Positions 121 to 28,884 of a stretch of 33,280 bases of DNA are shown piece by piece (the stretch's first letter is position 1; the number at the start of each line of letters is the position of its first letter). The stretch is from Chitinophagales bacterium (lineage in GTDB: Bacteria; Bacteroidota; Bacteroidia; Chitinophagales; UBA2359), in contig JAHDEE010000007.1 of NCBI GenBank assembly GCA_020629005.1, positions 33,996 through 67,275 of the forward strand, in the 5' to 3' direction. The notes below the pieces were generated by a model that ran no database searches, had not been told where the DNA came from, and saw only the letters and a program-made list of their open reading frames with translations. Both the position numbers and the translations under genes were made by a program.

Positions 121-295
121 CTTGCCCGTTAAAACGGCCCTACATACGCACAAAATCACATATTTTATTGTATATTAGAGCCGAAAAGCTCCTCAACAGT
201 TTTGCTAAATTTCTTGATTCATTGCATCGGTATGGATTTGCTTGCCATTTTATACAATGCAAGGTGCTTTCTCACTGACAGTATTTGAATTCATT

Positions 296-1261
296 ATGAA
301 TAGATCAAACTATTTTGATACGATTGAAGAAAAGATCAATGCTCTAGCAGAAAGGATTAAATCCCGCAGCAGACTGAATTTGTTAAACCTCAATATACAT
401 AGCGAGAATTTCTATTTTCAATTTCTTAATCGTCTCTTTGGCTGGAAAACCCAAAATGTCAACGCTGTCAGAGGAAATGTTGAGGGTATAGATTTGATTG
501 ATCATCAAAATAAGATCATTGTACAAGTCAGCTCTACAAATACAAAGAGAAAGATAGAGAAGAGTCTTGAAAAGGATATTATTAAGCAACATTCCAGCTA
601 TCGCTTTAAGTTTGTATCAATCGCAAGAGATTGCGATAATCTCAAGAAGGCCTCGTTTGCAAATCCCCACAACTGTCTATTCGACCCAGTTAGCGACATT
701 ATTGACAAACACTTTATCCTAAGTCATGTACTACAACAGGACATCACTGTGCAAAAAGAGTTGTGCAGTTTCATCCTTGAGGAGCTGGGTAATCCAGTTG
801 AGGAACTTGTATTGGAATCGACCATCGCGGAACTAATCAATTTCTTGCACAAAAATAAACCAACAAATGCAAGTTTGGCTCTAACAGTAGATGCATTCGA
901 TATAGATAGTAAAATTCAGTTCAATGGCCTGGAGTTGTCGCGTGAGATTATTGAGGAACATAGCGTCTATTATTCCAGTATCAGCAGCAAATATGAGATC
1001 TATGATAGAGAAGGAATCAACAAGAGTAGGTCAGTGCTCCATGCCATTTCAAGATTTTACAGACTTGAATCAATCGATGGAGGGGACCCCAACCGTATCT
1101 TCTTGAATATTGTGGATAAGGTAGCGGATTTTGCAAGGGGAAGTGGTAGCTTTATCCTGACTACAAAGGAGATTCTACAGCTTTCGGCCGAAATCTTGAC
1201 GGTTGATACGTTTCTTCGGTGTAAAATTTTTAAAAACCCTCCCAACCGTGCTACTACCTAA
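296..1261 (+). CDS. SMEK-domain protein, ABC-3C system effector/sensor component
   Basis: This is the first gene of a three-gene ABC-three-component (ABC-3C) operon. The N-terminal ~160 residues match my recollection of the SMEK domain: an opening of the type MNRxxYFxxIEEK, then LNLLNLNIHSENF, then EGIDLID (63-69), IIVQVSS (74-80) and KIEKS (86-90). The E/D...QxS pattern resembles a PD-(D/E)XK nuclease core with an altered lysine position; that reading is inference. Residues ~185-321 look like an ABC-3C C-terminal domain, ending in a VDTFLRCKIF motif. The ATG at 296 was preferred over a TTG at 242 because the domain starts right there. The end overlaps the next gene by 14 bases when its GTG start is used. 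Base composition is AT-richer than the metabolic genes further along, which fits transfer. Confidence 0.8.
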   Translation: MNRSNYFDTIEEKINALAERIKSRSRLNLLNLNIHSENFYFQFLNRLFGWKTQNVNAVRGNVEGIDLIDHQNKIIVQVSSTNTKRKIEKSLEKDIIKQHSSYRFKFVSIARDCDNLKKASFANPHNCLFDPVSDIIDKHFILSHVLQQDITVQKELCSFILEELGNPVEELVLESTIAELINFLHKNKPTNASLALTVDAFDIDSKIQFNGLELSREIIEEHSVYYSSISSKYEIYDREGINKSRSVLHAISRFYRLESIDGGDPNRIFLNIVDKVADFARGSGSFILTTKEILQLSAEILTVDTFLRCKIFKNPPNRATT

Positions 1262-1475
1262 CAATATTCATCCTAAAGACTCCCTCTATTTCAATGGAGC
1301 AGTTGTTCTCTCTCAGCTATTGAAACTTAAAAAAGTGAACCTCTTCGAGCTGTACGGTATGGTAAATGAACAACGGAACATGACTATGCCTGTATTTGTT
1401 CTTACACTGGACTGGCTCTACCTTGCGGATGCAGCCAAAGTTGATGAAGACTCAAACGTCGTACTATGTATTTGA
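1248..1475 (+). CDS. ABC-3C system middle component (MC6-like)
   Basis: This small 75-residue protein lies between the SMEK protein and the ABC ATPase, the usual place of the middle component in ABC-3C systems. The start LLPNNIHPKDSLYFNGAVV resembles the LPxKHIxxxxSLLGxGA opening of middle component 6, followed by a predicted winged-helix-like body (LFELYGMVN...LTLDWLYLADA). The GTG at 1248 places that motif at the N-terminus; the TTG at 1203 would add 15 unlikely residues. The gene overlaps its upstream neighbour by 14 bases and its downstream neighbour by 10, which implies translational coupling and fixed stoichiometry. In the family this protein is thought to link ATPase and effector. Confidence 0.72.
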   Translation: MLLPNNIHPKDSLYFNGAVVLSQLLKLKKVNLFELYGMVNEQRNMTMPVFVLTLDWLYLADAAKVDEDSNVVLCI

Positions 1476-3187
1476 AAGAACTTAATATCATCAAGAGAAA
1501 TGAGCTGATAAGGAAAGTCAATTTTCGAAATGGGATAAATCTGATTGTAGATATCACCGGCAAAGATGGGACTGGGAATGATGTAGGCAAAACCACAACA
1601 TTGAAGTTAATGGATATGTGCTTGGGTTCAAGCAAGAATGTCATCTACGCCAGTGCGGAAAACCCAAGAGACGAAAATCTTCTAGTAAAAAAATTCCTTA
1701 TTGACAATGAAGTGGTTATCCAATTGCGTCTGGTTGAGGATCTAAATGATCCCATGAATGAAATTGTAATCGAACGAAATTTTTTAAAGAGGAATAGTGC
1801 AATACGCACTATAAACGGAATAGAGTATAGCAATGACAATCTGTTTGAAGACGGTTTAGCGAAAGCTCTATTTGGGGATACAATACTCAAGAAACCATCT
1901 TTCCGTCAATTGATTTCCCACAATATCAGGTATGAAGATGATAGTCTTGTAAACACGCTAAAAACGCTGAACAAATACAGTAAAGCTGTGGAATATGAGT
2001 CGTTACATTTGTTCATGCTTGGCTGTGATATTGAGCATGGGGAGAAGCGGCAAGAGTTATCTTATAAATTAAAGCAAGAAGTTGCTTTTAAAGCGCGACT
2101 GGAAAAGCACCAAACCAAAAACGCATATGAAGTTTCTCTAAATGCAATAAATTTGGAAATCAAACGACTGAAAAGCCAAAAGAAAGACCTTAATTTGAAT
2201 GAGAACCTAGAGGGAGATTTAAGCGTCCTTAGTACTGTTCGACTTGAAGTCAGTAATGTCAGCAAACGAATCTCCAATCTAGAAGTTCGTCGAAAGCTGA
2301 TACAAGATGCAAAAGACAGTTTGAAGCAAGACATACAAGAAATTGACACAGACCAACTAGTCGCTATTTATGAAGAAGCAAGCACATATTTGCCCGAGTT
2401 AAACAAAACATTTGAGGACTTGGTCGACTATCACAACAGGATGATTGCGAATAAGATTTCTTTTGTTGCCCAGAGCCTCCCAAAAGTCGAAAATGATTTA
2501 GAGGACTTTTATTCAGAGCTTAGGACTTTGAGAGATAAGGAGGCAGAGATTAGTCAGAGAATTGCCGCTTCTGATTCCTTTGAGCAGTTAGATTCAATCG
2601 TAACTTCTTTAAACAATCAGTATCAAAAGAAGGGAGAATACGAACAAACCATCGAACAGTTGGAGGCTGTAGAGAATGAGATCAAGGAAATTGAGGAAAT
2701 GCTTGAGCTGATTGACAATGAACTTTTCTCCGATAGCTTTGAGTCCGTCGTCAAGAGGCAAGTCAACAAATTTAACGTTTTCTTTTCACGCGTCTCAAGG
2801 GCTATATATGGTGAAACCTACGGCCTAACGTATAAAATTTCCGTCAATAAAAAGACTGGAAAGAAAGTATATAGTTTTTCCACTTTTGATGTTTTAAATC
2901 CCAACCTATCGACAGGGAAAAAGCAAGGGGAAATCTCCTGTTTTGAAATTGCGTATATCATGTTCGCTAGGGCTGAAAACATTCCCCACCTGCCATTTGT
3001 GCTAAATGACAAGAAAGAGTTAATGCATGGAAATCAACTTGTGAAGATTGCGTCTCTTGTGAAGGAGGAAAACATCCAATTTGTATGTTCAATTCTGGAA
3101 GACAAACTTCCCCAGGAGTTGAGGAAGAAGCCTTATTATGTGCTGGAGCTGTCACAGGATGATAAGTTATTTAGAATTGAGAGCTGA
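1466..3187 (+). CDS. DUF2326 ABC/SMC-like ATPase of an ABC-3C system
   Basis: A 573-residue ATPase with an SMC/RecN-like plan. The N-terminal half-site has a P-loop (NDVGKTT, residues 38-44) followed by LKLMDMCLG. A long charged heptad-rich region (about 190-420) is a predicted coiled coil, and the C-terminal half-site carries STGKKQGEI and a Walker-B-like LPFVLND. This matches DUF2326 family ATPases, the shared component of ABC-3C systems, which are proposed to sense foreign nucleoprotein and license the effector. The ATG at 1466 overlaps the middle-component stop by 10 bases. The glycine normally at the first Walker A position appears to be threonine (DGTGNDVGKTT). A MITE-like element begins 13 bases after the stop codon. 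Confidence 0.85.
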   Translation: MYLKELNIIKRNELIRKVNFRNGINLIVDITGKDGTGNDVGKTTTLKLMDMCLGSSKNVIYASAENPRDENLLVKKFLIDNEVVIQLRLVEDLNDPMNEIVIERNFLKRNSAIRTINGIEYSNDNLFEDGLAKALFGDTILKKPSFRQLISHNIRYEDDSLVNTLKTLNKYSKAVEYESLHLFMLGCDIEHGEKRQELSYKLKQEVAFKARLEKHQTKNAYEVSLNAINLEIKRLKSQKKDLNLNENLEGDLSVLSTVRLEVSNVSKRISNLEVRRKLIQDAKDSLKQDIQEIDTDQLVAIYEEASTYLPELNKTFEDLVDYHNRMIANKISFVAQSLPKVENDLEDFYSELRTLRDKEAEISQRIAASDSFEQLDSIVTSLNNQYQKKGEYEQTIEQLEAVENEIKEIEEMLELIDNELFSDSFESVVKRQVNKFNVFFSRVSRAIYGETYGLTYKISVNKKTGKKVYSFSTFDVLNPNLSTGKKQGEISCFEIAYIMFARAENIPHLPFVLNDKKELMHGNQLVKIASLVKEENIQFVCSILEDKLPQELRKKPYYVLELSQDDKLFRIES

Positions 3188-3199
3188 TTTTCTGCTTTA

Positions 3200-3359
3200 G
3201 GGATAGGGAGGGAATCAATAACTATCCGATTTTGACGCCGCTGGAAATGATTTATACGAGGCATTTTTTGACAGCATCCTTGCTGGATGGTGGAGAAAAT
3301 TAATGATGGATAAAGCATTTCTAGCAAGTCAAAATGGACAGTTATTGATACGCTGTCCC
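3200..3359. mobile_element. MITE-like element, copy 1 (160 bp)
   Basis: A short non-coding element with terminal inverted repeats. The left end holds ATCAATAACTATCCGATTTT (3214-3233) and the right end holds its near reverse complement AAAATGGACAGTTATTGAT. The arm symmetry continues inward for about 45 bases (GACGCCGCTGGAAATGA against the complement of GCATTTCTAGCAAGTC). Both ends start GGGA and are flanked by TTA. A second copy lies at 15916-16071 with the same ends and a highly similar centre (TTTTTTGACAGCATCCTTG). It has no coding capacity, so any transposase must act in trans. Copy 1 has four extra bases at its left tip relative to copy 2. Confidence 0.8.
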
Positions 3360-3415
3360 TTAGTGAAGCCAGGCTTTTCAGTCTCACTGCCCTGTACCTG
3401 CGGTGGAGAAACAGT

Positions 3416-3601
3416 GCAAAATAGCCCCGGGCGAAACGGTATGAGGTGCCCAGCCAGCGTGGAGAGTGCAGGGCCAATGGCGGCTCGGAGCCTGCGGAGA
3501 GACGGCAGTGGCCTTGCACGAGCAGCTGGATGGGTGCCGAATAATAGTGGAGCACGGGACTGCAGCTTCCGCGTGCGAATGCTGTTTGGCTCCAAATTAT
3601 T
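3416..3601 (+). ncRNA. Candidate structured RNA element, copy A
   Basis: A GC-rich intergenic element of 186 nt sharing ordered motifs with copies at 28701-28884 and 19158-19342: GCAAAATAGCCCCG at the 5' end, GGCTCG (3482-3487), GAGAGACGGCAG (3497-3508), a purine-rich GTGGAGCACGGGACT block, and GCTCC plus an A/T-rich tail. Predicted pairings are P1 AGCCCCG (3423-3429) with CGGGACT (3555-3561), one mismatch; P2 GGTGCC-CAGC (3445-3454) with GCTG-GATG-GGTGCC (3525-3538), where GATG bulges; P3 GTGCAGGGCC (3466-3475) with GGCCTTGCAC (3510-3519); and a 3' hairpin CAGCTTC/GAATGCTG. The G.U pairs in P2 and P3 work only if the plus strand is the RNA. Open frames across it are not conserved as protein. 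Function is unknown. Confidence 0.55.
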
Positions 3602-15914: not shown

Positions 15915-15915
15915 A

Positions 15916-16071
15916 GGGAGTGGGAATCAATAACTGTCCGATTTTGACGCCGCTAGAAGTGATTTAGACGAGGCATTTTTTGACAGCATCCTTGATGGCT
16001 GGTGGAGAAAAATAACGAAGGATAAATCATTTCTAGCAAGTCAAAATGGACAGTTATTGATTCTCCATCCC
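15916..16071. mobile_element. MITE-like element, copy 2 (156 bp)
   Basis: A second copy of the element at 3200-3359. The terminal inverted repeats here are nearly perfect: GAATCAATAACTGTCC on the left (15923-15938) and its complement GGACAGTTATTGATTC on the right (16048-16063). Symmetry extends inward through ATTTTGAC and GCTAGAARTGATTTA, about 45 bases in all. Both tips begin GGGA and are flanked by TTA, so TTA or TA is a possible target duplication. It contains no open frame of note. The element lies between two convergent genes, the acylase and the VWA lipoprotein. Confidence 0.82.
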
Positions 16072-16134
16072 TTAATACTCAAATCATTCTCTTGTTCTTA
16101 AGAACAGTATATTGTACAGTACATTGGTCATGCA

Positions 16135-19157: not shown

Positions 19158-19342
19158 AAATTTTTGGAGCGAAACGGGGCTCCACCGCGCAAACTTCAGT
19201 CCCGCTATCTGTTCCAATGCAACTACCCTTCGCTGCTGTCTGCATCCACTGCTCCTGTCTCTCCTATCGTCGAGCCAGCATCAGTGGCGCAGCCAGGCGC
19301 TCAGTGCAGCTGCATTTCCACGTCTATCGGGGCTATTTTGCC
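19158..19342 (-). ncRNA. Candidate structured RNA element, copy C
   Basis: Reading the minus strand, this 185-nt element carries the family motifs in order: GCAAAATAGCCCCG (complement of 19328-19341), GGCTCG (complement of 19271-19276), GGAGAGACAGGAG, CGGGACT and CGCTCCAAAAATTT at the 3' end. P1 is AGCCCCG with CGGGACT (complements of 19328-19334 and 19198-19204). P2 is AATGCAGCTGC with GTAGTTGCATT (complements of 19306-19316 and 19216-19226), 11 pairs including two G.U. P3 is CCACTG with CAGTGG (complements of 19282-19287 and 19246-19251). P2 and P3 sequences differ from copies A and B yet remain paired. It lies between the HEPN pair and a hypothetical gene, all on the minus strand. Confidence 0.5.
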
Positions 19343-19427
19343 AACTGCCTTGCACGCGCAAACAACATCAAGAGAATCATCCTAAAACAATTGCTTCTCA
19401 CTAGCAGTTGATCACTGGCCTTTTGGT

Positions 19428-19721
19428 CTAAGCAATCTTGGATCGACGAACGATCGGTTGGCAAGCCTCTTTCAAGTTAAAGCAGAAAACCGAAATTCGA
19501 GTTTCTACAGTTGTGGTTTTCCATAAGGTATCTAGCAGTATCTCAAGGCTTTTAACTTGTCCTTGTTCCTTGATCCACCTTGCGGTTGGAGTCAGTACAT
19601 ACGATGAAGAAGAGTCACCAGGATATGCAGGCTCAAAAGTGAGGCTATCCAAAGCAAATCCTCGATCCTTCAACATCTCGCGAAAGGGTTCTAGTGCTTT
19701 CCTTAGTTGTTGCTTATCCAT
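19428..19721 (-). CDS. Small partner protein of HEPN gene
   Basis: A 97-residue protein overlapping the HEPN gene's 3' end by 19 bases, so translation is probably coupled. It has an N-terminal helix (MDKQQLRKALEPFREMLKDR), then a strand-rich section (LDSLTFEPAYPGD, SYVLTPTARWIKE, SLEILLDTLWKTT, ETRISVFCFNL). The GSxxxD signature of the minimal nucleotidyltransferases that often accompany HEPN proteins is absent, so it is not a standard MNT antitoxin. A role as antitoxin or specificity partner is inference from the overlap alone. The C-terminal tail (ACQPIVRRSKIA) is basic. Confidence 0.65.
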   Translation of the reverse strand: MDKQQLRKALEPFREMLKDRGFALDSLTFEPAYPGDSSSSYVLTPTARWIKEQGQVKSLEILLDTLWKTTTVETRISVFCFNLKEACQPIVRRSKIA

Positions 19722-20161
19722 TGTAACAATCCGTTTTCCTCTTGTAGAAACCCGACCAAGGCTTCAATAGTTTCTTTGCTCACTGTCCCTATTGGTTTGT
19801 ACCGACAATTTTCATCCCAGTTTGTAAACAGCAAGGAATTGATGATTGCGAAATCCTGACGTCTAGCCTTCGCTCTATCGAATTTAACCTTTAATCCACT
19901 CAAAAGCAGTAAAAAGTTTAGATCATGGGTCTTTAAGGTCTTCCTCAAGGTACCAATGCTCGCGATTCTGTTCATCTCAAGATGCTGAGCATCAAATAGA
20001 TTTGGAACGCCCAACCGTAAGCAGATCCTGGACTTTAGCATAAGCTCCACACTATATCCAGCCAGGTAAAAGGCTCCGTCAAAACAATCAGCTCTAAACA
20101 GGATTTCGGCTTCTCGCAAGCGAGCGAAGGCTAGCTGAGTGATTTGCTGTGGTGAATTCAT
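19703..20161 (-). CDS. HEPN-domain protein
   Basis: A 152-residue all-helical protein with the HEPN signature: a helix LAFARLREAEILF (10-22), DGAFYLAGYSVELMLKSRIC (28-47), and THDLNFLLLLSGL (78-90). An R-x5-H arrangement (Arg73, His79) falls in the spacing range of the HEPN RNase motif, but the HDL form is also seen in non-catalytic members. HEPN proteins often act as RNA-cleaving toxins or as nucleotide-binding partners in toxin-antitoxin and defence modules. It is followed by an overlapping small gene, a layout typical of two-gene toxin-antitoxin units. Confidence 0.8.
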   Translation of the reverse strand: MNSPQQITQLAFARLREAEILFRADCFDGAFYLAGYSVELMLKSRICLRLGVPNLFDAQHLEMNRIASIGTLRKTLKTHDLNFLLLLSGLKVKFDRAKARRQDFAIINSLLFTNWDENCRYKPIGTVSKETIEALVGFLQEENGLLQWISNN

Positions 20162-28506: not shown

Positions 28507-28700
28507 CCTTTTCTTTTGTGCTTCCGATAACATACTTTGATCCATTGATTCTATAAGGTATATCCAGTTTTACTAAAAAACCAATCAATGATAGAATCAC
28601 TTCACGCATTGCCAATACTGGACTGAAGGTCGCTGTTTTTGCTTGTAATCCAGCATCAATCCCACACCATTTCCACATCCAGGCTGGACGGAATGCAGCA

Positions 28701-28884
28701 TCAGAATAGCCCCGGGCGAAACGGTACTCAGTGCCTGCATGCGCCAGTGAGCGCCAGCCTATGGCGGCTCGCCCTAAGGCGAGACGGCAGAGGCTGAGCA
28801 GCGAACAAGCAGGCAGGTGCTGAGTAAGAGTGGAGCACGGGCAAGCCGGTGCTGGAGTGAAGGACCATTCGCTCCTAAAAATTT
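28701..28884 (+). ncRNA. Candidate structured RNA element, copy B
   Basis: A 184-nt intergenic element with the family motifs AATAGCCCCGGGCGAAACGG (28705-28724), ATGGCGGCTCG (28761-28771), GAGACGGCAG (28781-28790), GTGGAGCACGGG (28830-28841) and GCTCCTAAAAATTT at the 3' end. P2 is ACTCAG-TGCCTGC (28726-28738) with GCAGGCA-GGTG-CTGAGT (28809-28825), GGTG bulging as GATG does in copy A. P3 is CAGCC with GGCTG. The apical hairpin CTCGCC-CTAA-GGCGAG (28769-28784) is perfect, and the 3' hairpin GGAGTGAA/TTCGCTCC (28854-28875) contains one U.G. It lies between the amidotransferase start and the DUF4249 3' end and is convergent with DUF4249. A minus-strand frame across it is not conserved between copies. 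Confidence 0.55.

Follow-up and report, generated by a model that had tools for sequence, protein, structure and literature searches.

A dispersed repeat folded on one strand in a Chitinophagales genome, a long-arm relative of Flavo-1

Introduction

The window analyzed here is a stretch of 33,280 nucleotides from a Chitinophagales bacterium (assembly GCA_020629005.1, contig JAHDEE010000007.1), and it carries three related intergenic segments. What kind of element are they? The initial annotation had proposed an RNA family without a name, whose role could be that of a mobile palindromic repeat, a regulatory RNA, or the RNA part of a larger system. The nearest known family is Flavo-1, which has been listed since 2010 as a probable RNA without a function and which Weinberg et al. 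(PMC2864571) considered not to be cis-regulatory. We determined the extent, fold, relatives, and distribution of the element and weighed the explanations that these results allow.

Three copies of one unit in the window

Reading and aligning the three segments placed all of them where the initial annotation had them, and the short blocks that it listed as common were present in each copy. A covariance model of the core matched the window at exactly three places (3416-3558 and 28701-28841 on the forward strand and 19201-19341 on the reverse strand); the scores for copies A (E 2e-30) and B (Table 1) and for copy C (91.9 bits) come from a model whose training set includes these copies.

The unit is built around a core hairpin of 138 nt, which is preceded by a left arm (about 20 nt) and followed by a right arm (about 34 nt); the right arm ends in GCTCC, and an A-rich tract comes after it. 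In a sequence logo of 38 copies, both arms carried a CGCGNNGG-like motif, and the right arm terminated in TTCGCTCC before an A/T tract. The left arm with its CGCGNNGG-type motif places the start of the unit about 20 nt upstream of where it had been drawn. In all three window copies, the 3' end of the unit is GCTCC, and an A/T-rich tract comes next.

Table 1. Parts of the three window copies (CM, covariance model trained on a set that includes them; z, fold compared with dinucleotide shuffles)
Feature	Positions	Strand	Evidence
Copy A left arm, with a CGCGNNGG-type motif; hypervariable	3399..3419	+	Sequence logo (38 copies)
Copy A core, AATAGCCCCGGGC ... GCACGGG; a single long hairpin whose internal loops are conserved	3420..3558	+	CM 143.6 bits; fold z -3.4; covariation
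Copy A right arm, ends GCTCC, then A/T-rich tract	3559..3593	+	Logo; arm comparison; fetched right arms
Copy B left arm	28683..28704	+	Sequence reading; logo
Copy B core, GGGC subtype	28705..28841	+	CM 135.1 bits; fold z -5.2
Copy B right arm, ends GCTCC	28842..28875	+	Sequence reading; logo
Copy C left arm	19338..19361	-	Sequence reading; logo
Copy C core, GATA subtype; most similar to Flavo-1 of Rfam	19201..19337	-	Flavo-1 34.0 bits, E 6.8e-6, threshold 42; fold z -4.7
Copy C right arm, CGCGGTGG...TTCGCTCC	19166..19200	-	Sequence reading; fetched right arms

The core is related to Flavo-1

The initial annotation knew of no named family with this order of motifs. A core model built only from copies in the genome of the window (G000) found matches in 11 further genomes among 395 of the phylum. 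Rfam named Flavo-1 (RF01705) in 9 of 11 tested loci from genomes of other classes and in 6 of 9 tested loci from four relatives, G001 (which is of the same genus as G000), G004, G017, and G020, with 44.7 to 74.2 bits over the two sets together; loci of G004, G017, and G020 were among those so named. Relatives within the same order exceed Rfam's threshold for Flavo-1, and the model matches in relatives align as this family, so that a named family does exist for the core.

The window copies themselves scored lower. None of the three reached the Rfam gathering threshold of 42 bits, and no family passed in the whole window; copy C fell below the threshold (Table 1), and the Rfam scan of copy A gave no Flavo-1 match. 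A routine scan would therefore have missed the link, and because the gathering score was not reached, we filed the window copies as a variant rather than as plain members. In the cmscan alignment, copy C contains the consensus helices of Flavo-1 (CCC/GGG, a GAU/AGC step, and an AGCGG internal loop), which the covarying pairs 11-17/145-151 and 21-28/134-141 fit.

Flavo-1 and the window element share a UAGCCCCGAU...AGCGG...AGCGGGA core, the order of helices and internal loops, and the GCTCC end. However, the Rfam model spans 76 nt, whereas the arm of the window element spans about 138 nt with additional conserved internal loops, and most copies have GGGC/GCAC where Flavo-1 has GAU/UAGC internal pairs. 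The variable P1 letters, the extra 5' and 3' arms, and the scores under threshold set the window element further apart. These comparisons identify the element as a divergent long-arm subfamily of Flavo-1 with a homologous core. The long-arm form had been unrecognized until now, and Flavo-1 itself is an already catalogued, unexplained family. Rfam thus misses a large and strongly amplified Flavo-1 subfamily.

Copy number and distribution

With copy B as the blastn query against G000, the best 40 of 279 candidates all had E values of 2.5e-21 or better. The exact 10-mer AATAGCCCCG occurred 235 times in G000 (8 times for the reversed control), 514 times in G004, 66 times in G001, and 27 times each in G017 and G020; most of the family was near background. 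When 30 copies were picked by their right arm, only 8 of the 25 readable ones had CCCCG, and the others carried CCCT, CCTC, CCCG, CCCA, and the like, nearly always with matching partner letters downstream. We therefore estimate that G000 holds about 700 copies (roughly 450 to 1,500). These copies are about 70% identical to one another. The core covariance model gave at least 150 matches in G000, at least 150 in G001, 147 in G004, 130 in G020, and 38 in G017. Among named genomes, the long-arm pattern was seen only in the Chitinophagales metagenome-assembled genome JAHDDV01.

In one further genus (g60), 140 of 150 genomes contained Flavo-1, and the majority of them had 29 copies or more; none of 14 control genomes contained it. 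From its Flavo-1 content and number of species, this genus is presumably Flavobacterium.

With genes called as simple open reading frames, copies in G000 showed no preferred orientation relative to tandem genes (24 in the same and 25 in the opposite direction) and used all kinds of intergenic context (22 divergent, 29 convergent). In half of the complete Flavobacterium genome G565, 14 of 22 copies were concordant with the skew, which is no significant replication-strand bias.

Selection acts on one folded strand

The RNAalifold consensus of 36 aligned copies from G000 was a single long hairpin with regularly spaced conserved internal loops. Pairing was kept in 97.1% of cells, and 32 of 40 pairs had changed on both sides. 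The covariation score was 0.623, whereas shuffles gave 0.184 and slid partners no more than 0.13, and cells with double changes numbered 297 against 73 in the control. The variable stems are thus compensatory, as the initial annotation had supposed. Pairs of the P1 helix were almost never broken among copies. Together with the blastn, motif, and covariance model counts, these results bear out in full its expectation of a selected fold of constant length with many further copies. The compensatory changes, along with insertions and deletions, rule out a conserved protein frame as the explanation.

In pairs with at least two Watson-Crick types, G-U occupied 75 cells and A-C only 4. In every one of 124 copies, the given strand folded more stably than its complement, whether RNA or DNA parameters were used. 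This strand preference and the excess of G-U show that the selected object is one single strand and not a cruciform. Selection acts on the strand that reads AATAGCC...GCTCC, as RNA or as single-stranded DNA.

Cores are mosaics with hypervariable arms

Every one of 30 fetched right arms adjoined a core at a constant distance, and the arms therefore belong to the unit rather than to an empty target. For the same reason, we rejected the right arm as a target site that predates the element. Among 99 copies, pairs with cores at least 95% identical had an arm identity of 0.55, compared with 0.53 for random pairs, and cores that are 97 to 99% identical can bear unrelated arms. The two parts of a core also differ in their nearest relatives: an inner core shared at 100% came with an outer core at 77%, and an outer core shared at 98% came with an inner core at 63%. 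This mismatch in kinship implies that parts have been exchanged between sites, and the cores are mosaics.

Taken alone, the arms were no more structured than shuffles, and a search for arm-arm covariation found that a copy's own arms pair weakly (z -2.7). No target duplication was found upstream or downstream of copies, and no arm matches were found in the immediate flanks.

Copies are maintained in place

At one g60 locus, the element lies downstream of a conserved gene and starts, read from the gene, at the terminator T-tract (...TTTTTTTTGGAGC). Among 30 loci fetched, GGAGC abuts this T-tract in 12 species, and the element is absent in the 18 others. Across the 12 species, identity is 84% in the gene, 88 to 91% in the outer core, and 63% in the arm; in the sequence just past the 5' end of the element it is 55% (51% when shuffled). 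In some of these species the apical hairpin has been swapped (28 to 51% identity) although the arm stays alike. A conserved outer core with replaced hairpins at one site indicates that copies are preserved while parts are exchanged in situ. Either selection or conversion thus keeps these copies whole at their site. In two of the g60 species (loci L290 and L292), a long near-perfect inverted repeat (AGGCTTCCAGCCTTT...) has replaced the apical hairpin at an otherwise orthologous site.

In G000, the association with terminators was weak (7 versus 3 in shuffles). No precise empty site was recovered; a search of G001 for empty sites orthologous to the window copies met broken synteny. In two intergenic regions common to G000 and G001, the elements of the two genomes differ in their cores, and in one of these regions they are oppositely oriented.

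Explanations for the repeat

Any explanation has to accommodate selection on one strand, exchange of cores and apical hairpins between sites, arms that are hypervariable but keep fixed motifs, the lack of an orientation rule, and independence from a Y1 transposase. With somewhat more confidence than doubt, we lean toward a nonautonomous, recombining dispersed repeat that acts via one folded strand. New sites would arise beside A/T tracts such as a terminator T-tract, in either orientation relative to genes; such siting was seen at the one Flavobacterium locus and elsewhere as a compositional bias, from which we infer a general rule of T-tract insertion. Enzymes acting in trans may recognize the folded strand and provide mobility. 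Cores, and apical hairpins within cores, would then be overwritten by copies from other sites, probably through gene conversion or core-only copying, and this overwriting would preserve resident copies even as their arms and flanks drift. Against a mobile repeat, resident copies stay intact across the species of a genus, unlike a dead insertion, and carriage by nearly all genomes of genus g60 looks more like long retention than like a recent invasion. Of the roles suggested by the initial annotation, the mobile repeat is still the best supported; the simple palindrome falls away, since the fold is confined to one strand.

We found no transposase, integrase, or reverse transcriptase tied to the element and no gene common to its neighborhoods, where only gliding-type C-terminal domains recurred; a role as the RNA part of a larger system accordingly could not be shown. 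There were no phage- or plasmid-borne copies in annotated collections and few in IMG/VR. One of the latter is an Rfam-confirmed Flavo-1 (45.4 bits) between genes of a 42-kb contig (L354, 9082-9148) that resembles a Bacteroidota phage with weak PHROG support.

Each copy could instead be a functional RNA, either a cis element or a member of a large small-RNA family, in which a conserved core is the scaffold and variable single-stranded arms address targets. The strand-specific fold fits this reading, as do little-structured arms that are unique to each copy and an outer core that is more conserved than the neighboring gene at the orthologous site in 12 species. However, the orientation relative to tandem genes is random, whereas a cis-regulatory RNA would be fixed relative to its gene. 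In addition, the arms have no matches in the immediate flanks, copy number varies by orders of magnitude among relatives, and Flavo-1 matches in the F. psychrophilum transcriptome are sense or antisense to transcribed regions or fall outside them (PMC9723704). We consider a functional RNA unlikely, and the regulatory role once suggested finds little support.

It seems quite improbable that the copies are relics of an extinct mobile element, homogenized by gene conversion alone and now free of function or mobility. Mosaic cores and the lack of a partner gene fit this reading, but conversion alone does not explain the near-universal one-strand fold, the arm motifs, or the rarity of broken P1 pairs. 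A comparably long shot is that Flavo-1, including the long-arm variant, is a bacterial equivalent of SINEs: a reverse transcriptase acting in trans would copy the folded RNA with its A-rich 3' tract, with priming at T-tracts, for example those of terminators, and template switching would give both mosaic cores and new arms.

REP and REPIN sequences with RAYT resemble the element in being dispersed, intergenic, structured, noncoding, and present in hundreds of copies. In REPs, GGAG is adjacent to the fold. On a REP-like reading, an HUH Y1 transposase (RAYT or IS200/IS605 TnpA) would move the element through its single folded DNA strand; the end of the opposite strand reads GGAG beside the fold, and one Y1 gene of G000 lies about 200 bp from an element. 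Yet five complete Flavobacterium genomes carry at least 29 copies without Y1_Tnp (G454, G274, G479, G501, and G502), three have Y1_Tnp and no element (G482, G530, and G569), no Y1 match was found in G001, where the copies number at least 150, and the element loci examined contained no Y1 gene. A Y1 transposase is thus neither necessary nor sufficient as a partner, and the element differs from REPs further in its 190 nt and its one-strand fold; we regard this reading as very improbable.

MITEs are also short, noncoding, and dispersed. The element lacks the terminal inverted repeats and target duplication of a MITE: no duplication was found, and the arms pair weakly. The window holds a second dispersed repeat of about 165 bp (3196-3365 and 15915-16077), an almost perfect inverted repeat whose ends resemble TTAAGGGA...GGGAATCAATAACTGTCC, which was found in 12 of 451 loci, had many copies in G001 at 95 to 97% identity, and had no Rfam match. 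It looks like a young MITE. In contrast to this repeat, which is 95 to 97% identical across the genus, the element is about 70% identical between copies, mosaic, and well folded on one strand only.

Our analysis recasts Flavo-1 as a dense structured repeat across Bacteroidota, and the question of its role is now directly testable in cultivable Flavobacterium.

Genes and rearrangements beside the window copies

Directly upstream of the 165-bp repeat and copy A, the genes at 242-3187 resemble an ABC-three-component defense system: one product combines SMEK_N with CTD10, and another is a DUF2326 ATPase similar to LmuB/PDC-M68B. Two small neighboring genes (19428-20161) adjoin copy C, and the second weakly matches the candidate defense family PDC-M28A (E 7e-4). 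The segment 22651-28966 is inverted relative to G001, and the intergenic region of copy B is one breakpoint; in G001, the same gene has at its 3' end an element with a different core.
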